Positions 7,881 through 31,936 of a stretch of DNA of 64,000 bases are shown here, one piece after another. The stretch spans positions 248,001 to 312,000 of the forward strand of contig DATENU010000020.1 in NCBI GenBank assembly GCA_035274845.1, read 5' to 3'. Source of the stretch: Chthoniobacterales bacterium (lineage in GTDB: Bacteria; Verrucomicrobiota; Verrucomicrobiia; Chthoniobacterales; UBA10450). Position 1 is the stretch's first letter; every line of letters starts with the position of its first letter. The notes under the pieces were generated by a model that was not told the origin of the DNA, ran no database searches, and was given only the letters and a program-made list of their open reading frames with translations. Position numbers and translations under genes: made by a program.

Positions 7881-8429
7881 CTACGGGCGTTCCTCGAATT
7901 TGAGGGCCAGCCCGTTCAGGCAGTATCGTAATCCGGTTGGAGCGGGGCCGTCATCGAAGACGTGGCCGAGGTGGGCGCCGCAACGCGAACAGAGAATCTC
8001 GTCCCGATCCATCCCGAAGCTGCGATCTTTCACGGTCGTGATGATTCCCGGGATGAACGGCCCAGTGAAGCTGGGCCAGCCGGTGCCGGATTCAAACTTC
8101 GCGTCACTCGCGAACAAAGGTGCGTTGCACCCGACGCAATGGAACACGCCGCGGCGATGTTCGGTGAGCAGGACGGAAGAACAGGAGCGCTCGGTCGAGT
8201 GGCCGCGGAGAATCGCATATTGCTCCGGCGTGAGCTGCTTTTTCCATTCGGCGTCCGATTTCTCCACTTTCGGGACGGGCGCCAGATCCTGGGCGGTGGG
8301 CTTCAATGGTTCCATATTTTTGACGGCAACTTTTTCGGTTCCCTGGGCATGCGGTTGCCGCGCTATATAAAGAGCGCCAAGCGCGATTACGGCGAGGAGA
8401 ATAAGAGATCGGATGGTGAGGCGATTCAT
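7881..8429 (-). CDS. msrB: Exported peptide-methionine (R)-S-oxide reductase
   Basis: The 182-residue protein reduces methionine-R-sulfoxide in proteins. An N-terminal hydrophobic segment (about 5-22) predicts export or membrane anchoring. The MsrB domain follows, with structural zinc cysteines in two CxxC pairs (98/101 and 147/150), the GTGWPSF motif, the CGAHLGHVFDDGP motif and the catalytic cysteine in RYCLNG (Cys170). Cys83 (ERSCSS) sits where the resolving cysteine is found in many MsrB proteins. An export signal suggests envelope protein repair. Confidence 0.92.
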   Translation of the reverse strand: MNRLTIRSLILLAVIALGALYIARQPHAQGTEKVAVKNMEPLKPTAQDLAPVPKVEKSDAEWKKQLTPEQYAILRGHSTERSCSSVLLTEHRRGVFHCVGCNAPLFASDAKFESGTGWPSFTGPFIPGIITTVKDRSFGMDRDEILCSRCGAHLGHVFDDGPAPTGLRYCLNGLALKFEERP

Positions 8430-18939: not shown

Positions 18940-19137
18940 CTACGGGGCGGGGAAAACGCCCGGATTGTTCAAGGCGTGGAACGTCATCAGGCGTTTCGCG
19001 AGGCCGGCGGGAATCGGCCCGCTCAGTTGATTGTGGTCCACTCGCAATACCTGGAGGGCTGTCGCGTCGGCGAAACTCATCGTCCCGGAAAGCGATGCTG
19101 GACGGCGTTGGCAGACTCCGTTATTTGAAATTGCCGA
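18940..19137 (-). pseudogene. Relic of a leucine-rich-repeat protein (C-terminal fragment)
   Basis: Reading the minus strand, about 65 codons end in a stop at 18940. They contain a plant-type leucine-rich repeat, LQVLRVDHNQLSGPIPAGLA, preceded by an ISNN...PASLSG remnant of another repeat and followed by LMTFHALNNPG. No start codon or upstream repeats in the same frame are seen, because the P450 gene begins there on the other strand. It looks like the surviving 3' end of a longer gene. Confidence 0.55.
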
Positions 19138-19154
19138 GCAAGGACGTCGACGTG

Positions 19155-21395
19155 ATGCAAACCTCCTCAACGCCGGCGACAGGGAAGGAAGGCGCCGCTC
19201 CACTAGCGACCGACGAGTCGCCGGTTTCGCGCTGCCCATTTTCACCGCGTGTTCCCGGGCTGCCGCTGCTCGGCAATACGCGTGACTTCCTGAGAGACAC
19301 GACCGGGTTCCTGGTCTCATCCTATCGCGAGCACGGACCGATTTTCCGGATCCGAATGCTCTGGCTGAAGTTCACCGTGATCCTCGGCTTCGAAGCGAAG
19401 GAGTTCATGACGACGGGGGGCGAGCGTCACCTGACCCGTCACCCCATTTTTGATCCGGTCGGCGAGCAATTGGGCAGCGCGGATTTCGCCCTGGCCCTCT
19501 CCGGAGAGAAGCATCTTCATCTGCGCCGGCTCCTTCAGCTTGCCTATTCACGTGAAGTTGCGAGCCCCTATTTGCCGCAGCTCGTTCAGGCTGTCCGGGA
19601 AACTCTGCGGGAATGGCCGGCCGGTAGCGTCCAGGAAGTGTTCGAAGGCGTGCAGTTGCTGGCGTTCCAGCAGTATTGCCAGGTGATGGGAAATGTTTCG
19701 TTTCGCGAGCATTATCGCGATTGCCGGGTCGTGACCGACATGAACATGGAAGTCGGCGGCCGGGTCCTGCCGTTGTGGATGTTTCGCTGGCCGCCCTATC
19801 GCGCCGCCCGCCGGCGGGTCTTGAAACTGACGAGCGATCTGGTGGCACGTCATCGCCGGGACGGTCGCTCTCTGGATCGGCCACCCGACATCATCGACAC
19901 CCTGATCTCTCTCAAGTTTCCGGATGGCCGCCCGATGAGCGATGACGAAGTGGTCTGCTACGCGCTCTATGGATTCGCGGGGAGCAGCAGTTACATGGGG
20001 CGCCTCGTGGCGTTCATGCTCTACGAGATCTTCAAGCATCCTGATCTCCAGGCGCGGCTGATCGAGGAGGTCGACGTGGCGTTTGCCTCGGGCCTTCAGG
20101 ACGCTTCCGATATCCATGAGATGCGGCTTCTGCGCGCTGTCTTTCATGAAACCCTGCGCTTTCATCCGGTTTCGCAGGGAATGCCGTATGTGGCGAAAGA
20201 GAGTTTCCGGTTCAACGGGAACCGCGTCGAGAAAGGGGACATGGTTGTGCTCTCGCAGCTGCCGATGCTCTTCGACGAAAACGCGTTCCCCGATCCGGGC
20301 CGATTCGATCCGTCGCGTTGTCTGGAGGCGAGGAACGAGCATCGTAAGGGGGGCGCGTTCAATCCCTTTGGAATGCATCATCGGACCTGCGCCGCGATGG
20401 GCCTGGTCGAAATGATGGCCATCACCATGGTGGCCACCTTGCTCCATGAACGGACCCTGGAGATGGCGCCGCCCGGTTATCGGCTCCGGATGACGGTCAA
20501 GCCGTTGCCCGCGCCAGATCGCCATTTCAAAATGCGAGTTCGCCCCCGCGAACAAGCGCTCGTTAGGCCGGGTGCCGCCCTTCCGCTGCGCGAAGAAGTT
20601 TTCCTCGCCACCTTCGACGGGGCGGACAACGTCGATGTGATCGAGGCTTTCCGGCAGGGTGAATACATCAGCTTCGAGCCCGGAACCGAAATCATCCGTC
20701 AGGGGGATGAAGCCGACGCGTTCTATATTCTGCTCGAGGGCCGGGTGGAAGTATTCCGCACGAATGCGGGCGGCACCGAGGTGGCGTTCGTGGCGATTCT
20801 TCTTCCGGGCGATTACTTCGGTGAGATCGGCCTGCTCACGAACGCGCCCCGAAATGCCACGGTGCGCGTCCTGCCGGGATCACCAGCTCGCGTCCTGAAG
20901 CTGGGCGCGGAGGCGTTCCGGCAAGTGGTGGCGGAATCCGACATGGTGAGCAGTGAGATAGCTCGCGTCGCCCGGAAACGCGTGGCCCAGGAATTCTTGC
21001 TAGGGTCGGTGGTGGGCATGAATGAATCGGAAATTCAGAGCCGATTTCCGGAGTTCAAGCGCGAGAGGTTTGCTCCCGGAGAAGTGGTCCTGCGGGAAGG
21101 CGATTTACCGGACCGCTTCTACCTTCTCGTTCGGGGAACAGTCAGTGTCTCTCAACGCGACAAGGCGGGACGCGACCAGCAGGTCGCGACGTTGCGTCCC
21201 GGAGATTATTTTGGGGAAGCGGGCCTGATTCACAATGCTCCCCGCAACGCCACTGTGACCGCTTCGAGTGACGGCGAGACCGTCGCTTATTCCTGCGATC
21301 GGAGCGCTTTCGATCTTCTGGTCCGGGAGGCGGGGGGTCCGGCCGGCGATCTCGCTTTGGCGTTGTCCGGCAGACTCCGCGACCCGGTCGCCTGA
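19155..21395 (+). CDS. Cytochrome P450 fused to two cyclic-nucleotide-binding domains
   Basis: The 746-residue protein carries a P450 domain (about 30-465). ExxR is HETLR (Glu332, Arg335) and the heme-ligand loop is FNPFGMHHRTCAA with Cys412. The I-helix reads GFAGSSSYMG (274-282), lacking the usual acid-Thr pair. Two CRP-like cNMP domains follow (about 490-610 and 626-740). Both keep the phosphate cassette FGE(I/A)GL...NAPRNAT with Glu and Arg, so both could bind a cyclic nucleotide. There is no signal peptide. ATG 19155 was chosen; ATG 19095 is in frame but overlaps the LRR relic. Redox partners are not encoded nearby. Confidence 0.9.
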   Translation: MQTSSTPATGKEGAAPLATDESPVSRCPFSPRVPGLPLLGNTRDFLRDTTGFLVSSYREHGPIFRIRMLWLKFTVILGFEAKEFMTTGGERHLTRHPIFDPVGEQLGSADFALALSGEKHLHLRRLLQLAYSREVASPYLPQLVQAVRETLREWPAGSVQEVFEGVQLLAFQQYCQVMGNVSFREHYRDCRVVTDMNMEVGGRVLPLWMFRWPPYRAARRRVLKLTSDLVARHRRDGRSLDRPPDIIDTLISLKFPDGRPMSDDEVVCYALYGFAGSSSYMGRLVAFMLYEIFKHPDLQARLIEEVDVAFASGLQDASDIHEMRLLRAVFHETLRFHPVSQGMPYVAKESFRFNGNRVEKGDMVVLSQLPMLFDENAFPDPGRFDPSRCLEARNEHRKGGAFNPFGMHHRTCAAMGLVEMMAITMVATLLHERTLEMAPPGYRLRMTVKPLPAPDRHFKMRVRPREQALVRPGAALPLREEVFLATFDGADNVDVIEAFRQGEYISFEPGTEIIRQGDEADAFYILLEGRVEVFRTNAGGTEVAFVAILLPGDYFGEIGLLTNAPRNATVRVLPGSPARVLKLGAEAFRQVVAESDMVSSEIARVARKRVAQEFLLGSVVGMNESEIQSRFPEFKRERFAPGEVVLREGDLPDRFYLLVRGTVSVSQRDKAGRDQQVATLRPGDYFGEAGLIHNAPRNATVTASSDGETVAYSCDRSAFDLLVREAGGPAGDLALALSGRLRDPVA

Positions 21396-23017: not shown

Positions 23018-23692
23018 ATGCGTAAGATTTTGCTGATCGAAGATGAGCCGTCGATTGCCGACAACATCATCTATGCATTAAAGACGGAAGGTTTCTCGCC
23101 CACCTGGTGCCAGACTGGGGGCGACGGGCTGCGCACCTTCGCCGAGCAAACTTTCGTGCTCGTGATTCTTGACGTAGGGCTGCCCGACATGAGCGGCTTC
23201 GAGCTTTGCAAACAGCTCCGGACGCGCTCTCGGGTTCCCATCGTTTTCGTCACGGCACGCAAAGACGAAATCGACCGCGTGGTCGGGCTCGAGATTGGCG
23301 CTGACGATTATGTAGTGAAGCCCTTTACGCCGCGGGAGCTCACCGCGCGAGTGAAAGCGATCCTGCGCCGAACCGAATCTGCCGGCGCGGCGCAGCCGGA
23401 GACAACGCGCCTGTTTTCGATCGACGAGGAGCGTTGCGAGATCCGTTATTGCGGCAGCCCGCTTCAACTGTCGCGATATGAGTTTCGCCTCCTTAAAGTG
23501 CTGGTCCAAAAGCCGGGGCGGGTTTATTCGCGCGACCAGCTGATGGAGTTGGCCTGGGAAGAGCCCGATACCGCGCTCGACCGCACGGTGGACGCGCATA
23601 TCAAGATGCTTCGAGCCAAGCTGCGGGCGATCCGCGACGATGAAGACCCGATCCGCACTCATCGGGGGCTCGGCTATTCGCTGAAAGACTGA
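23018..23692 (+). CDS. creB: CreB-like response regulator
   Basis: The 224-residue protein is an OmpR/PhoB-type regulator. Its receiver domain has acids DE at residues 8-9, the phosphoacceptor in VLVILDVGLPDMSGF and the lysine in DYVVKPFTPREL. The winged-helix domain is at about 135-222, with VLVQKPGRVYSRDQLMELAW. Assignment to CreB rests on the paired CreC-like kinase and on TTCAC tags spaced 11 bp apart before the gene at 25214, the same tag that E. coli CreB binds. It is separated from the kinase by one base. Confidence 0.85.
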   Translation: MRKILLIEDEPSIADNIIYALKTEGFSPTWCQTGGDGLRTFAEQTFVLVILDVGLPDMSGFELCKQLRTRSRVPIVFVTARKDEIDRVVGLEIGADDYVVKPFTPRELTARVKAILRRTESAGAAQPETTRLFSIDEERCEIRYCGSPLQLSRYEFRLLKVLVQKPGRVYSRDQLMELAWEEPDTALDRTVDAHIKMLRAKLRAIRDDEDPIRTHRGLGYSLKD

Positions 23693-23693
23693 C

Positions 23694-25130
23694 GTGAGCA
23701 TTCGCGCCCGCATCATCGTCACCCAGCTCCTCATCGTGGGAATCGGATTTTTTTATCTGGTGAAGAAGATCACCGACGTGAATGAGATCAAGCCGCGCTA
23801 CATGCAATCGATCGAGGAACCGATGGTGGATACGGCGCGGCTCCTGGCGGCGCTGCTCGAGAGCCAGAGCCCCGGCGGCAACATCGATATCGGGCCGTTC
23901 CGCGAATCGTTTCAGCGCGCTCGCTCCCGCCCCTTCAGCGCGAAGATTTACAGCAAACTCAAGACGGACATCGACCTCCATGTTTACGTCACTGACGCGA
24001 ACGGAATCGTCCTCTTCGATTCGAATGGAGGCAAGGCCGAGGGCCGCGACTTCTCCAGGCAGAACGATGTCTGGTTGACCTTGCGGGGGAAATACGGGGC
24101 GCGATCTACTCGAGCGGATCCGAACGATCCGACTTCCGCCGTGCTTTTTGTGGGAGCGCCCGTCATGAGCGAAGGCAACGTGATTGGCGTCCTGACGGTT
24201 TCGAAGCCGCAGAAGAGCATGGCGACGTTCATGCAAGAGACGCGACGAAAGATTTTCGTCATGGGTGCGATCGCCGCGGTTGCGGTCGTGATTGCCGGCG
24301 CGATCCTGTCGGCCTGGATAACGCGGCCGATTGAGCGGCTCACAAAATATGCGCGCGGGGTCCGGGATGGGCGCCGGACGCCGCTCCCAAAGCTGGGCGG
24401 CTCGGAGATCGGATCGCTGGGGAAGGCCTTCGAGGAAATGCGGGACGCGCTCGACGGGCGGAAATACATCGAGAGTTACGTCCAGACACTGACGCACGAG
24501 ATCAAGAGTCCGGTCGCGGCGATTCGGGGAGCGGCCGAATTGCTTCACGAACAAATGCCGTCCGAGCAGCGGGATAAATTTCTGGAGAACATTGAGGGCG
24601 AGACCGTCCGCATCCAGGAAATCGTGGATCGGCTTCTGCTGCTTTCGGCGGTGGAAGCGAAGAAGTCGCTCGAGGACCAGAAGCCGGTCAACCTGGCGGA
24701 ACTTTTGGAGCGAACCGTGGCGAGCGTAGCGGCACAGGCTTCGGCGAAGACCATCCACCTCGAAACCAAATTGCCGGCTGCGCCCGCGGTGATATCCGGC
24801 GACGAATTTCTCCTCGAGAAAGCGATTCTCAATTTGCTTCAAAATGCGATCGCGTTTGCCCCGGCTGGCGGAAGCGTCTCGGCCGAGCTGGTTCGGACCG
24901 ACAGTTCCGCGGCGGTGCGGATAACGGACAACGGCCCGGGTATTCCAGGGTTCGCCGAAACAAAAATCTTCGAGCGTTTCTATTCGCTGCCGCGGCCGGA
25001 TACGGGAAAGAAAAGCTCGGGGTTGGGGCTGGCCTTTGTCCGCGAGGTAGCGTTGTTGCATCGCGGGTCCATCGAAGTGAAGAACGCGCCGCGGGGTGGC
25101 GTGATCGCTGAGCTGGTGCTGCCGATCTAG
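23694..25130 (+). CDS. creC: CreC-like sensor histidine kinase
   Basis: The 478-residue protein starts at GTG 23694. It has an N-terminal membrane helix (about 8-22), an extracytoplasmic CreC-type sensor region (about 25-180), a second helix (about 187-207) and a HAMP segment. The HisKA box is LTHEIKSPVAAIRGAAELL with the phospho-accepting His, and the ATPase shows the N-box LLQNAIAFAP, NGPGIPG and SGLGLAFV. Length and organisation match E. coli CreC (474 residues). The signal is unknown. With the regulator upstream and the VIT/vWA gene downstream it forms the control half of the exosortase cluster. Confidence 0.88.
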   Translation: MSIRARIIVTQLLIVGIGFFYLVKKITDVNEIKPRYMQSIEEPMVDTARLLAALLESQSPGGNIDIGPFRESFQRARSRPFSAKIYSKLKTDIDLHVYVTDANGIVLFDSNGGKAEGRDFSRQNDVWLTLRGKYGARSTRADPNDPTSAVLFVGAPVMSEGNVIGVLTVSKPQKSMATFMQETRRKIFVMGAIAAVAVVIAGAILSAWITRPIERLTKYARGVRDGRRTPLPKLGGSEIGSLGKAFEEMRDALDGRKYIESYVQTLTHEIKSPVAAIRGAAELLHEQMPSEQRDKFLENIEGETVRIQEIVDRLLLLSAVEAKKSLEDQKPVNLAELLERTVASVAAQASAKTIHLETKLPAAPAVISGDEFLLEKAILNLLQNAIAFAPAGGSVSAELVRTDSSAAVRITDNGPGIPGFAETKIFERFYSLPRPDTGKKSSGLGLAFVREVALLHRGSIEVKNAPRGGVIAELVLPI

Positions 25131-25153
25131 CGGAGTGAGACGCGGTGCACTAT

Positions 25154-25191
25154 TTCACGTCGATTTCACGCTGACTTCAAAATGTTTTCAC
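25154..25191 (+). promoter_or_regulatory. CreB tag array: four TTCAC-type repeats at 11-bp spacing
   Basis: TTCAC begins at 25154 and 25165, TTCAA at 25176 and TTCAC at 25187, each exactly 11 bp after the last. Thus TTCAC-N6-TTCAC, the known E. coli CreB recognition tag, occurs here as an extended run. It lies 23 bp before the start codon of the VIT/vWA gene and just after the creBC-like pair, so it probably controls the exosortase genes. Confidence 0.82.
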
Positions 25192-25213
25192 ACGCCGTCG
25201 CCAGAGTGGCGGC

Positions 25214-27223
25214 ATGAAAACAAAAATCATCCTGACGGCGCTGCTGCTCGCGCTGCTGCCGATCAGTCAAATCCGAGCGAGCGAATCTGAAGATAATAAA
25301 GCGGACAAAACGCTCTCGCCCTATTTCCACGTGAAGACGGCCGAGACCAGCGTCGACGCGATGCCGCTCAAGTCCACCAACGTTCGCGCGACCATCGCGG
25401 GCGTCATTGCCGACGTGGTCGTGACGCAGACGTATTCGAATGCGGGCGGTGTGCCGCTGGAGGCGACCTATGTGTTTCCCGGTTCGACCCGCGCAGCCGT
25501 TTACGGAATGCAGATGAAGATCGGCGATCGTCTGCTGAAGGCGAAGGTAGAACCGCGCCAGGAAGCGCGCCGCACCTACGAGCAGGCAAAGACTGAAGGC
25601 AAGAGCGCGTCACTCCTCGAACAGCATCGCCCCAACGTCTTCCAAATGAACGTGGCCAATATCATGCCGGGCGACACCGTTGAAGTGGAGCTGCGTTACA
25701 CCGAGCTGCTCGTGCCGGACAGCGGTGAGTATTCCTTCATCTACCCGACGGTGGTGGGACCGCGTTACTCCAACCAGTCGGAGTCGACCGCGCCGGAGAC
25801 CGACAAATGGATTAAGAACCCGTATCTGATGAAAGGCGAGAAGTCGCCGGCGACCTTCAGCGTCGCGGTGGATATCGCAGCCGGGATGCCATTGCTGGAC
25901 TTTCGCTGTGAAACTCACGAGGTGAAACCGCAATTCACCGATCCGTCGCGGGCAACGATAACGCTTATGCCCGGCGACGCGACCGCGAACAACCGCGATT
26001 TTATTCTCAAGTACCGGCTGGCCGATTCCAAAATCGAGTCCGGCCTCCTCGTGAGCACGGGGGAGAAGGAAAACTTTTTCCTGCTCACGGTGCAACCGCC
26101 CAAGCGAAGCACGCCGGTAGCGTTGCCGCCGCGTGACTATGTCTTCGTGCTGGACGTTTCCGGATCGATGCACGGTTTCCCGATCCAAACCGCGAAGCAG
26201 TTGATCCGGCAGCTGTTCGGCACGCTCAAGCCTAACGATACTTTCAACGTGCTCCTGTTCTCAGGTGGCTCGACCGTCATTTCCCCCACGGAACTTGTTG
26301 CGACAAAGGAGAACCTCACGCGCGCCCTGGGCGTGATCGACCACGAGAAAGGGGGCGGTGGGACGGAGCTCTTGCCGGCGTTGGAGCAGGCGCTGGCCCT
26401 GCCGAATCCCAACGAAGCAGCGCGCAGCATAGTTGTCATTACAGATGGTTACGTCGATTGCGAAGCGAAGGCGTTCGACCTGATTCGCGGGAACCTGAAC
26501 CGCGCGAATCTGTTTGCCTTCGGAATCGGCTCCAGCGTGAACCGTCACCTGATCGAGGGAATGGCGCACGCCGGTGGTGGTGAGCCATTTGTCGTAACCA
26601 AACCCGAGGAAGCGGAGAGCGCGGTCGCGAAATTCCGCGATTACGTCGCCGCGCCACTGTTGACTCACGTCGCCGTCGACTTCGGCGGCTTCGATGTTTA
26701 CGACGTAGAGCCCCGTTCGGTGCCCGATCTCCTGGCCGACCGCCCCCTGGTCATTTTTGGCAAATGGAAAGGCAACGCGAGCGGAACGATCTCACTCCGC
26801 GGCAAGACCGGGGCCGGGGATTATCACGCCGAGTTCGCGCTCCAGGATGCGCGCTCGATGAGCGGGAGTAATGCGCTCATCTATCTCTGGGCGCGGACGC
26901 GTATCGCGGCGCTGGTAGACTTCGGACACGCTGGGCCGGAGGAGGAACGCGTAAAGGAGGTCACAAACCTCGGGCTCACCTACAATCTGCTCACGGCGTA
27001 CACTTCGTTCGTCGCCGTGGACGACATCGTGCGTAATCCCAACGGGAACGCCCAGACAGTGAAACAACCGTTGCCGATGCCGGCCGGAGTGGAAAACAGC
27101 GCCGTCGGCACACCGATTCACACCACCCCGGAGCCGGGAACGTGGGCTCTGTTCAGCGTCGTGGCAGTGGTCCTGGGCGCCCGCGTGTATCGCGCGAGGA
27201 AAACAAGATGCGCTCGGGCCTGA
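25214..27223 (+). CDS. VIT and von Willebrand factor A domain protein with PEP-CTERM sorting tail
   Basis: The 669-residue protein has a signal peptide (about 1-23), a VIT domain (about 40-170, with ATYVFPGSTRAAVYGMQMKI and EARRTYEQAK) and a vWA domain (about 305-480) whose metal-site motif is VFVLDVSGSMHG. The last 33 residues form a PEP-CTERM signal: PEPGTWALF, a hydrophobic helix, then RVYRARK. Such tails are cut by exosortases during export. The layout parallels the sortase-targeted VIT/vWA proteins of marine proteobacteria, but with an exosortase signal. It overlaps the exosortase gene by 16 bp. Confidence 0.92.
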   Translation: MKTKIILTALLLALLPISQIRASESEDNKADKTLSPYFHVKTAETSVDAMPLKSTNVRATIAGVIADVVVTQTYSNAGGVPLEATYVFPGSTRAAVYGMQMKIGDRLLKAKVEPRQEARRTYEQAKTEGKSASLLEQHRPNVFQMNVANIMPGDTVEVELRYTELLVPDSGEYSFIYPTVVGPRYSNQSESTAPETDKWIKNPYLMKGEKSPATFSVAVDIAAGMPLLDFRCETHEVKPQFTDPSRATITLMPGDATANNRDFILKYRLADSKIESGLLVSTGEKENFFLLTVQPPKRSTPVALPPRDYVFVLDVSGSMHGFPIQTAKQLIRQLFGTLKPNDTFNVLLFSGGSTVISPTELVATKENLTRALGVIDHEKGGGGTELLPALEQALALPNPNEAARSIVVITDGYVDCEAKAFDLIRGNLNRANLFAFGIGSSVNRHLIEGMAHAGGGEPFVVTKPEEAESAVAKFRDYVAAPLLTHVAVDFGGFDVYDVEPRSVPDLLADRPLVIFGKWKGNASGTISLRGKTGAGDYHAEFALQDARSMSGSNALIYLWARTRIAALVDFGHAGPEEERVKEVTNLGLTYNLLTAYTSFVAVDDIVRNPNGNAQTVKQPLPMPAGVENSAVGTPIHTTPEPGTWALFSVVAVVLGARVYRARKTRCARA

Positions 27224-27996
27224 TCAATCCGCCGCGGCTCATGCTCGCGGCTTTCGCGGTTGCGCTCTGGCCGGTGGGGCGTTGGTACGCTTTGCGCATG
27301 TTTGACGGCAGCGACGAACCCTACGGCCTCATCGCGCTCGGGACACTGGTGATCGTGCTCGTCAGAAAAGGATTCTCATTGCCGGATAGCGAACTGCGGT
27401 GGAGCTGCGCGGGCGGTCTCCTCCTCGGGTACGCGCTGTTGTATTCCGTGTTCTCGCCGCTGCCACGCGCGCTCGTGGCAGCGGCAGCGCTGGCGATCCT
27501 CCTTTTTCGTCAGCGCAACGTCGTCGCGCAAACGGCCCTGCTTGGCCTTTCCCTGCCGGTCGTGGCAACCGTGCAGTTTTATCTCGGCTTTCCGTTACGC
27601 GTAGTGGCGGCGGAAGCGTCGGTGCTGGTTCTGCGGGCCCTCCATTTGGAGGTTTCTCGCGAAGGCACCCTGCTGCACTGGCGCGGCGAAACCATTTTGG
27701 TCGACGCGCCCTGCAGCGGAGTCCGAATGCTCTGGTTTGGGCTCTATCTTGCCGCCGCTCTGGCGGCGCTGGGCCGACTCGATAACCGACGAAGCCTGGC
27801 CGCGCTGAGTGGAGCGCTCATCCTGGTTATCACGGCCAACGTCGTGCGCGCAACCGCGCTCTTCTTTAAGGAAACACAAATCGTTGCCCTGCCGGATTGG
27901 ACGCACACCGGTATCGGCGTCGTTCTCTTTGTCGCCGCCGTTCTTATCATCGTCCGCCTAACGAGAGCATTGTCACCATGCGTTTCCGCGACCTGA
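27208..27996 (+). CDS. Exosortase/archaeosortase family transpeptidase
   Basis: The 262-residue protein has about seven or eight membrane helices. It has the family's invariant residues: Cys169 in VDAPCSGVRML, Arg214 in ANVVRATALFF and His233 in DWTHTGIGVVLF. Exosortases cleave PEP-CTERM tails at the membrane and probably transfer the protein to a surface anchor. The start overlaps the PEP-CTERM substrate gene and the end overlaps the EpsI-like gene by 19 bp, so all three are translationally linked. I cannot assign the Xrt subtype from memory with confidence. Confidence 0.92.
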   Translation: MRSGLINPPRLMLAAFAVALWPVGRWYALRMFDGSDEPYGLIALGTLVIVLVRKGFSLPDSELRWSCAGGLLLGYALLYSVFSPLPRALVAAAALAILLFRQRNVVAQTALLGLSLPVVATVQFYLGFPLRVVAAEASVLVLRALHLEVSREGTLLHWRGETILVDAPCSGVRMLWFGLYLAAALAALGRLDNRRSLAALSGALILVITANVVRATALFFKETQIVALPDWTHTGIGVVLFVAAVLIIVRLTRALSPCVSAT

Positions 27997-28505
27997 TTAT
28001 TCGCTCGTCGTTCGCGGCCGCCTGCCTGGTCGCTGGCCTGGTGCCGTTGCGACCGGTCGCGCACGGCAGCCCGCCGCTTCGATTACCGGAGTGGCCGACC
28101 GGGTGGGATGGCCGCGAAATCTGGCAGATTCCCTTGAGCGGGAGCGACGAAAGGTTCGGTGAAAACTTTCCAGGCCGAATCGCGAAGTTTACCGATGGCC
28201 GACGCGAATTCATTTTCCGGTGGGTGACAATCGGGACGCGACAGTTGCACCCCAGCGCCGATTGCTTCCGTGGGGCGGGGTTCACGATTACGCCGCGACC
28301 GGCCTTTCGCGACCGGGAGGAAAGACAATGGAGTTCGTTTCTGGCCGGCCGCGATCAGCGCCAGCTTATTGTGCGCGAACGGATTGCCGACCGGCACGGC
28401 CACGAATGGACCGATGTCTCCTCGTGGTTTTGGAGCGTGGCCTTCGGTCAGACCCAGGGACCCTGGTTGAGCGTGACTGTGGTCGAGGCCGACGTTCCGC
28501 CTTGA
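27978..28505 (+). CDS. EpsI-like exosortase-associated protein
   Basis: The 175-residue protein has an N-terminal hydrophobic segment (about 5-28), then a region ending in QLHPSADCFRGAGFTI (His91, Cys96). This resembles the H-x4-C-x2-GAGW core of EpsI/DUF3485 proteins, which accompany exosortases either as separate genes or as C-terminal domains. A role in sorting or surface polymer export is inferred from that link. It is the last gene of the creBC-VIT-exosortase run. Confidence 0.75.
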   Translation: MRFRDLIIRSSFAAACLVAGLVPLRPVAHGSPPLRLPEWPTGWDGREIWQIPLSGSDERFGENFPGRIAKFTDGRREFIFRWVTIGTRQLHPSADCFRGAGFTITPRPAFRDREERQWSSFLAGRDQRQLIVRERIADRHGHEWTDVSSWFWSVAFGQTQGPWLSVTVVEADVPP

Positions 28506-28668
28506 TCGATAAAGGTTCGGAATGCGCTCTCTGCGCGGCCGGTGATTTTTGTCTTTGAGAAAGAGGACGAAAAAGAGAAGCTCGCCGGCACCGGTGAGAA
28601 TGATTGAGGGGGACGCAACACCGCTTCGGCCAGCAACGTGGTCCGCCGCGCGACCGCTCCGAAAAGCG

Positions 28669-29751
28669 ATGATTCGAAAAATGATTTCCGCAGCGGGAGC
28701 GGCGTTCGTCGCCGCGCTTTGCCTTGCTCTGCTTTCCTGTCATTCGCCTAATCGCGAGGCGAACGCGGCCGCGGTCCATTTCGCCTATTCGTGGGAGCAG
28801 ACGATCCGGGTGCTCGGTCTGCAGGATTTGTCCGATCTCAAGGCGGTCGAGACGCAGTCCCGCAATCTCGATCCGGAGCGCGTCGCCCTGCGAGCCTTGG
28901 GCTCGGAGACGATGCGGGCCGAAGGGGACCAGCTCGACAACCTCGTTCTCTACGTTGCCCGGACCCTGGACGAAAATATCCGGGTCAACTCAGCCCGGTC
29001 GGAATCGGCCGTGTCCCGCGCGCCGATTGCCGTGGATTTTGCAAATCCTTCGCTCAACAAACTCCTCGGGCTCGATCCGAAGGAGGGCGATAACAATCCG
29101 CCAAAAGCCCTGGCTGCGCTTCATGAAGCAATCATTCGCTTCGCCGACAAGACAGGGGTTGGAAAGGAATTCAAAGAGGCGCTCGAGCAGCGGAACCAGG
29201 CCGACGCCGCACAGGGCGGCGGCGGACCTGTTACGACCGAGCTGAGCTGGCTGGAGATCAGGGAGGAAAAAGTTCGAGCGAGCAGGAAAAAGGCGGCGAG
29301 CTTGGCCAGTCAGCGCGACAAAGTCGAAAAAGACGCGGCGGCGGCGAATGCGCCGGTGGGATTCGCGGGTGCGAAATGGCTGATGCACCCCGACGAGGTC
29401 AGGCACGTCCGACCCAACACTACCGTCGACGCTGATGGCGACCTGGTGGAGTCGATGGAATGGCTCGGTCGTCCCGCCCGGGTCTGGTACAACTTCAGTA
29501 ACGATTTTTTGGTGATGGTCAGTATCTCTTTCGGCCGCGCATCGGAGGCGGAATTCGCCATGACCCAGGGTTTTTTGCAGGGCCTCTACGGACGAATGCC
29601 CGCCGCTGATAAGACGGAGAAATATCTTCTTTCTTCGCATTACACCACCGGTCTCACGAGCGGCCACATTGTCCGCTTCTCCATTTCCCACGTCCTGGGA
29701 ACGCCGCCGGCCAGTGTGGAGCTGGTGGTTTATTCTCGCGAAGATTTCTGA
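28669..29751 (+). CDS. Predicted lipoprotein, paralogue A
   Basis: The 360-residue protein has a lipobox-like LALLSCHS (Cys about 25) after a hydrophobic signal. A helical, charged middle follows, with a likely coiled coil at about 195-235 (KVRASRKKAASLASQRDKVE). The C-terminal beta-rich part begins near PVGFAGAKWLMHPDEV and ends VELVVYSREDF. It is clearly paralogous to the gene at 30863-31936, which ends LELVIYSREDL. I recognise no named family. ATG 28669 was chosen for its signal peptide. Confidence 0.75.
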   Translation: MIRKMISAAGAAFVAALCLALLSCHSPNREANAAAVHFAYSWEQTIRVLGLQDLSDLKAVETQSRNLDPERVALRALGSETMRAEGDQLDNLVLYVARTLDENIRVNSARSESAVSRAPIAVDFANPSLNKLLGLDPKEGDNNPPKALAALHEAIIRFADKTGVGKEFKEALEQRNQADAAQGGGGPVTTELSWLEIREEKVRASRKKAASLASQRDKVEKDAAAANAPVGFAGAKWLMHPDEVRHVRPNTTVDADGDLVESMEWLGRPARVWYNFSNDFLVMVSISFGRASEAEFAMTQGFLQGLYGRMPAADKTEKYLLSSHYTTGLTSGHIVRFSISHVLGTPPASVELVVYSREDF

Positions 29752-30862: not shown

Positions 30863-31936
30863 ATGGAAAAAATCTCGCGAACGAGTCTGGCGTTCCTGGT
30901 GGCTATATGCCTCGGCCTGATTTCATGCGGGGAATCATCCAAAGGCCAGCGGGCAGCGGTCCAGTACGCATTCTCGTGCACGCAAGTAGTTAAATTCCTC
31001 GGCTTCGGTTCCATGTCCGATTTACGGGAGGTCGAGAAACAATCCCGAGGTATGGACCGGGAGCGGGAGGGGCTTCGCGCCGATGCTTCCGAGCGAGCAC
31101 AGGAAGAAGCGCGCCAGCTGGATGCGCTCATTCTTTACGTCGCGAAATGCCTGGACCAAAATATCAGGGACAACGCCGCGCGACCTGAAGCGGAGGCTGC
31201 GGCCGGCCCTCTTCCGGTGGTTTTCCCGAATGCCGCCTACAATCAACTTCTTGGACTCGATCCGAAAAATGGGGACGACAGCGCGCAACGATCGCTAACC
31301 GCGCTTCACGCTGCTATTCATCGTTTCGCGGAGAAGGTTGGAGTCGATGGCGATTTTAAGGACGCCTTGCAACGCAGAGCAGAATCGGACGCCGCTCAAA
31401 GCAGTCGAAAGCCGGCCGCACCCGAAAAGACCTGGAAACAGGTCCGCGAAGAAAAGCTCGGAATTATGCGAGCAAAGAAGGCGGCTTTGATTGCCGAGCG
31501 CGGCCAGGTGGAAAAACAGGCCCTTGAGGCGAAGGCGCCGGTGGGATTCGGGCCAGCCAGGTGGTTGATGTATCAGGAGGAGGTGAAAAAGGTTTGTCCC
31601 AACGCAACTCCCGACTCGGAGGGCAACCTGGAGGAGAAAATGCAATGGCTGGATCGCCCCGTAAAAGTGGAATACAAATTCGAGAACGGTTTCCTGGTTA
31701 ACATCATGGTCTCCTTCGAAGACCCGGGGACGAAAGCCACTTTCTCTGCGACGCAGCAGTTCCTGCAAGGCACCTACAAAATGTCGAATCCCAAACCGAT
31801 GGAGACGTTGGCCCTGACCTCGACTTACTCGACCGGTATTCTGAAGCCCCACCTTATCCGGTTTACGATCTTCCACGCGCTCGGCAATACCGCTTCCGGG
31901 TTGGAGCTCGTTATTTACTCGCGAGAGGATCTGTAG
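30863..31936 (+). CDS. Predicted lipoprotein, paralogue B
   Basis: The 357-residue protein has a signal with lipobox GLISCGES (Cys about 22). It aligns along its length with the gene at 28669-29751. Shared blocks are QVVKFLGF/QTIRVLGL, LNKLLGLDPK/YNQLLGLDPK, APVGF-GPARWLM and the C-terminal YSREDL. The middle is helical with likely coiled coil. The function is unknown. A secreted LprI-like gene follows after 19 bp. Confidence 0.78.
   Translation: MEKISRTSLAFLVAICLGLISCGESSKGQRAAVQYAFSCTQVVKFLGFGSMSDLREVEKQSRGMDREREGLRADASERAQEEARQLDALILYVAKCLDQNIRDNAARPEAEAAAGPLPVVFPNAAYNQLLGLDPKNGDDSAQRSLTALHAAIHRFAEKVGVDGDFKDALQRRAESDAAQSSRKPAAPEKTWKQVREEKLGIMRAKKAALIAERGQVEKQALEAKAPVGFGPARWLMYQEEVKKVCPNATPDSEGNLEEKMQWLDRPVKVEYKFENGFLVNIMVSFEDPGTKATFSATQQFLQGTYKMSNPKPMETLALTSTYSTGILKPHLIRFTIFHALGNTASGLELVIYSREDL

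Follow-up and report, generated by a model that had tools for sequence, protein, structure and literature searches.

A 64-kb stretch of the genome of a Chthoniobacterales bacterium (assembly GCA_035274845.1, contig DATENU010000020.1, positions 248,001 to 312,000; the window in the following) carries five genes on the forward (+) strand that we read as a dedicated exosortase unit, probably under the control of the two-component system CreBC. The source genome comprises 4.5 Mb in 24 contigs, and the assembly is about 96% complete. The first gene, creB (23018 to 23692), encodes a response regulator of the OmpR family and the second, creC (23694 to 25130, GTG start), a sensor histidine kinase. A predicted CreB-binding array (TTCACGTCGATTTCACGCTGACTTCAAAATGTTTTCAC, 25154 to 25191) lies in the gap behind creC. 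It is followed by the gene of a protein with a Sec signal, a VIT domain, a vWA domain with MIDAS and a PEP-CTERM tail (TPEPGTWALFSVVAVVLGARVYRARKTRC, 25214 to 27223), by that of an XrtQ-like exosortase with Cys169, Arg214 and His233 and several membrane helices (27208 to 27996) and by that of a companion protein made of one N-terminal membrane anchor and a small alpha/beta domain (27978 to 28505). The VIT/vWA and exosortase genes overlap by 16 bp, the exosortase and companion genes by 19 bp. Five same-strand genes with these two overlaps had been described in an earlier annotation made from the letters of the DNA (the sequence-only reading), and a check of the open reading frames (ORFs) of the window returned exactly the same coordinates. 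The next gene, 28549 to 29751, was excluded from the unit because another gene takes its place in a sister genome (G006).

Both regulatory proteins scored above the curated cut-offs of their NCBIfam models, with 337.6 bits for CreB (NF008296, cut-off 273) and 599.4 bits for CreC (NF008312, cut-off 356), which confirms the earlier CreB-like and CreC-like labels. Their identities to the E. coli K-12 proteins are 52% and 43%, respectively, in the case of CreC over the full length including the sensor region. In Pseudomonas, activation of CreBC is tied to the loss of PBP4 and to beta-lactams (PMC2654508), and an envelope signal is therefore the natural guess for the CreBC of the window.

The array between creC and the VIT/vWA gene consists of four TTCAC-like half-sites (TTCAC, TTCAC, TTCAA and TTCAC, separated by GTCGAT, GCTGAC and AATGTT) that follow each other with a period of 11 bp and lie 23 to 60 bp upstream of the VIT/vWA ATG. 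Such a half-site spacing is expected for a regulator of the PhoB/OmpR type. The cre/blr tag TTCACN6TTCAC, to which CreB/BlrA binds, was described upstream of creD (PMC4689548). An exact tag is found at 25154 to 25169 and is the sole exact copy in the window, where 0.06 copies are expected. In E. coli K-12 the tag is situated in the gap between creC and creD, that is at the same position as the array of the window. Across the whole 4.5-Mb genome five exact copies were counted, against three in a reversed control, so that a wider regulon cannot be read from exact matches. A scan for sigma-70 promoters gave nothing above chance.

Relatives were collected in an alignment-based scan of genome contigs, from which the best 80 of 403 were used (best matches to the query and not a random sample), and in a survey covering 387 genomes of the phylum. 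After removal of duplicates, the two sources yielded 68 loci with a VIT/vWA gene beside an exosortase gene, which span Verrucomicrobia, beta-, gamma- and 'delta'-proteobacteria and Bdellovibrionota. Among the carriers, Methylovulum miyakonense HT12 and Roseibacillus persicicus KCTC 12988 are in culture. Upstream sequence was available for 62 of the VIT/vWA loci; the tag was exact in 27 and had one mismatch in 24, giving 51 of 62 at no more than one mismatch, as compared to 1.8% in random windows of the same loci and none on the reverse strand. The density of exact tags upstream of VIT/vWA exceeded that of the remainder of the loci about 200-fold, and the arrangement of four half-sites with a period of 11 bp was likewise conserved. 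Whether creBC was present in the flank or not made little difference to the tag at this stringency (25 of 30 and 26 of 32 loci, respectively). VIT/vWA genes of the dedicated-sortase kind, which occur in Gammaproteobacteria, had a tag in only 1 of 30 cases. With TTCACN6TTCAC upstream of its target, the unit thus bears the sequence hallmark of the CreBC regulon. Control by CreBC, through predicted binding of CreB to the array, is strongly supported. The sequence-only reading had proposed CreBC control and overlooked the tag that now provides a strong argument for it.

The complete order creB-creC-VIT/vWA-exosortase-companion recurs in all the groups named above, so the association that had been proposed extends across phyla; as a strict linkage it did not stand, since creBC is unlinked from the unit in about half of the loci. 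CreC was detected in 59 of the 387 phylum genomes (58 above cut-off) and XrtQ-like enzymes in 23, and all 13 phylum genomes carrying the VIT/vWA-exosortase pair have CreC. Where the unit is unlinked from creBC, CreC is encoded elsewhere in 29 of 31 genomes (9 of 9 from the phylum survey and 20 of 22 further genomes). Because the unlinked loci keep both CreC (29/31) and the tag (26/32), CreBC control is better supported than the sequence-only reading could know. A Fisher test on the phylum counts returned p-values that are too small given the relatedness of the genomes, and none is claimed here.

The enzyme of the unit belongs to the exosortase superfamily, with 83.9 bits for PF09721 (threshold 25.7), and the residues C169, R214 and H233 are those given in the sequence-only reading; their columns are invariant in an alignment with 14 relatives. 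Comparison with all exosortase-type models gave XrtQ (NF012182) as the nearest subfamily, with a score of 190.4 bits that stays below its cut-off of 270. A true XrtQ (360 bits) is present in Albitalea terrae (L154, Burkholderiales). Its locus repeats the creB-creC-VIT/vWA-exosortase-companion order and also contains an exact cre tag, so that XrtQ proper is part of the same wider clade as the window enzyme. The latter differs from XrtQ proper by its score below the cut-off, and the wider clade to which it belongs extends over several phyla. In an exosortase tree, obtained by a quick method and with many weakly supported deep branches, VIT-linked exosortases account for 67 of the 72 rows in a single branch, and adjacency to creBC changes at least 18 times.

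The putative substrate has a signal peptide and exceeds the Pfam thresholds for VIT (PF08487) and vWA (PF13768/PF00092), and its vWA domain contains an intact MIDAS (DVSGS). MIDAS and PEP-CTERM tail are found together in 61 of 61 full-length VIT/vWA relatives. With TIGR03788, the model of a marine proteobacterial sortase target, the protein reached 431.8 bits, below the cut-off of 551.65, and its neighbour gene codes for an exosortase. The tail is tripartite, with a PEP motif, a hydrophobic helix and a basic end (TPEPGTWALFSVVAVVLGARVYRARK). TIGR02595 (cut-off 16) gave 14.4 bits on the whole protein and 18.5 bits in a genome search, and PF07589 gave 16.7 bits for a threshold of 20.7. A profile of the family's own tails, built from 21 sequences including that of the window, detected the window tail with E = 6e-13. 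The VIT and vWA domains of the earlier description are thereby borne out, and the tripartite tail that it named is present, though marginal by TIGR02595 on the whole protein.

The companion had been called EpsI-like, and this label had to be abandoned. DUF3485 (PF11984) scored 13.4 bits for a threshold of 26.1, and a profile comparison with the EpsI-type domains of the same genome gave a probability of 1.9%. All 13 aligned companions instead match the C-terminal part of XrtT (NF033770, best E 7.8e-10). In the VIT-linked loci the companion is fused to the exosortase in 33 cases and separate in 35. The AlphaFold model has a mean predicted local distance difference test score (pLDDT) of 92. Foldseek gave no match to it at E ≤ 0.001, and with VIA-align the similarities were middling (PsbP-like chain with Z 6.6 as the best, DcrB 6.3, Mog1 5.7), so that no fold is proposed.

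Tails that the exosortase might recognise were sought by profile in the whole genome. With the family tail profile, the window protein alone was found below E = 1, and it is also the only one to exceed the TIGR02595 cut-off; one other candidate for the latter model (C10:63533) was rejected, as the match is inside a membrane-protein ORF and not at its C-terminus. The genome encodes two further exosortases in neighbourhoods of their own. The term self-contained therefore describes the unit, with its one tail below E = 1, and does not extend to the genome with its two other enzymes. These data support the attribution of the exosortase and the VIT/vWA protein to a dedicated pair, with a single substrate recognisable in the genome. 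One of the other exosortases lies in an exopolysaccharide-type locus (L026 8600-11058, G000:C11) beside a 285-amino-acid protein with a divergent PEP-CTERM-like tail, which ends in VPEINPAWSTIASCLIAAGLILRHSSHARRK (VPEINPAW...) and differs from that of the window.

The likely explanation of the locus as a whole, in our view, is a dedicated exosortase unit that forms part of the CreBC regulon. CreC would detect an envelope signal and phosphorylate CreB, which would bind to the four-half-site array between creC and the VIT/vWA gene and turn on one operon for the VIT/vWA protein, the exosortase and the companion. The VIT/vWA protein would be exported by Sec and retained by its C-terminal PEP-CTERM helix. 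The exosortase, by means of its Cys-Arg-His residues, would then cleave at the PEP motif and transfer the substrate to a lipid or polysaccharide acceptor, a process in which the companion may have a role. The product would be a protein that binds metal through its MIDAS and is located beyond the inner membrane, probably on the surface. The expressions 'stress-regulated' and 'surface display', used for the system in the sequence-only reading, may be appropriate by analogy with the CreBC and exosortase literature.

Several observations weigh against this assignment. The locus is patchy within the genus, where it was found in 2 of 8 genomes, and the tag and co-occurrence counts come from related sequences, which are not independent draws. 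By the generic PEP-CTERM models the tail of the window protein is marginal. The canonical creD of the same genome (G000:C17) has no tag within one mismatch and so provides no second target from which the specificity of CreB in this organism could be fixed. Cross-talk is also possible with a second creB-creC pair of the genome, which has a tag-like array of its own. This pair (L188 5708-10976, G000:C11:244000-258000) is followed by four tag-like half-sites at 7910 to 7947, a 553-amino-acid protein that matches no Pfam family and a membrane protein of 403 amino acids with weak similarity to CreD. In another genome, an exact triple cre tag immediately upstream of creB (L071 3834-3860) suggests autoregulation there.

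The frequent separation of creBC from the unit and the repeated changes of adjacency on the exosortase tree would also be seen if the dedicated pair was real and creBC a chance or co-transferred neighbour that controls other genes. Such a neighbour, however, would leave unexplained why the tag persists upstream of VIT/vWA genes that have no creBC beside them, why the genomes with unlinked units nearly always have CreC elsewhere and why dedicated-sortase VIT/vWA genes are devoid of the tag; we hold a fortuitous neighbourhood to be very improbable. The existence of two other exosortases in the genome, one of them encoded, in the exopolysaccharide-type locus, beside the protein with the divergent PEP-CTERM-like tail, together with the difficulty of detecting short tails by profile, leaves some room for a general PEP-CTERM sorter acting on many proteins, for example in exopolysaccharide export, to which the VIT/vWA protein would merely be the nearest. 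That the tail profile detects the window protein alone, that a VIT/vWA gene adjoins nearly all members of the clade of this exosortase and that the two other enzymes have separate neighbourhoods makes such a general function improbable.

The post-cleavage chemistry of exosortases is unsettled, and the operon contains neither an acceptor gene nor a glycosyltransferase gene, as would fit an exosortase that only clips the VIT/vWA protein free, so as to release or activate it, with no anchoring to an acceptor. The Cys-Arg-His residues are common to sorting enzymes, and in the same phylum a parallel VIT/vWA-CreBC unit uses a true sortase, which argues for anchoring, though not directly for the protein of the window. 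We therefore regard release as rather unlikely and retain the dedicated unit with anchoring of its substrate.

The surroundings of the unit in the window gave two further observations. Just downstream, the ORFs at 28549 to 29751 and 30863 to 31936 code for similar-looking proteins of 400 and 357 amino acids without Pfam match, with a reverse-strand ORF between them. Upstream, 19095 to 21395 encodes a 766-amino-acid protein in which a cytochrome P450 is fused to two cyclic-nucleotide-binding domains, an unusual pairing.

Among known systems, the dedicated sortase system of Proteobacteria (TIGR03785/03787/03788 and a sortase) follows the same logic, with a two-component system, a VIT/vWA substrate and a sorting enzyme of its own. 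Its substrate is homologous to that of the window (TIGR03788, 432 bits), whereas the sorting enzyme of the window is an exosortase, regulator and kinase are different (the window proteins score 156 bits with TIGR03787 and 122 bits with TIGR03785) and the genes of the sortase kind lack the cre tag (1 of 30). With the creBCD/blrABD regulon of E. coli, Pseudomonas and Aeromonas the unit shares the CreB and CreC families, the tag and the position of the tag just after creC; in contrast to E. coli creBCD, the VIT/vWA and exosortase genes fill the slot of creD, which lies elsewhere in this genome. In the XrtN system (TIGR04477) a VIT-domain protein is likewise dedicated to one exosortase, but the substrate of the window, a VIT/vWA protein with a Sec signal, is of the TIGR03788 kind and has no match to TIGR04477. 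We found nothing in the open-access literature on XrtQ or on CreBC in combination with an exosortase; the NCBI curators, who named the family, may know the gene order. The comparison of sequences supports the finding as real and as a dedicated sorting system, with a proposed CreBC control that is backed by a conserved DNA site.

Two other arrangements were observed in the phylum. In three genomes from another of its groups (f47; L069 8016-12902, L064 and L067) an exact tag, creD, an XrtN-like VIT gene, an XrtQ-like exosortase gene, a companion gene, creB and creC follow each other in the same direction. The VIT protein, read in L069 alone, has a PEP-CTERM tail and scores 159 bits with TIGR04477, below the cut-off of 250. 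Two further genomes (f37; L174 and L175) contain a sortase version, with creB-creC, cre tags, creD, VIT/vWA and a sortase. Together with the arrangement in the genome of the window, they connect CreBC to surface proteins of the VIT type whose anchoring enzymes are of different kinds. A possible, still tentative generalisation is that in many bacteria CreBC has, as a conserved output, a VIT surface protein with its own, interchangeable anchoring enzyme, creD being optional. The options would be an XrtQ-type enzyme with VIT/vWA, an XrtQ-type enzyme with an XrtN-type VIT protein and creD, or a sortase with creD.

The target of CreBC that is best known from the cited literature is creD, the product of which has a little-understood function (PMC4689548, PMC2654508). 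CreBC is widespread, and the conserved tag array that precedes a surface-protein/exosortase operon in several phyla would provide it with a concrete and testable second target. The array also predicts when an exosortase system would be turned on, and the unit, being small and having one recognisable substrate, lends itself to tests of cleavage and anchoring by an exosortase. A single regulator would connect the sortase, XrtN-type and XrtQ-type VIT systems. If the generalisation is correct, CreBC, which is known chiefly for creD and for responses to beta-lactams, would switch on a surface-anchored VIT protein upon envelope damage, and in E. coli and Pseudomonas creD would be a remnant or a helper of this VIT response.

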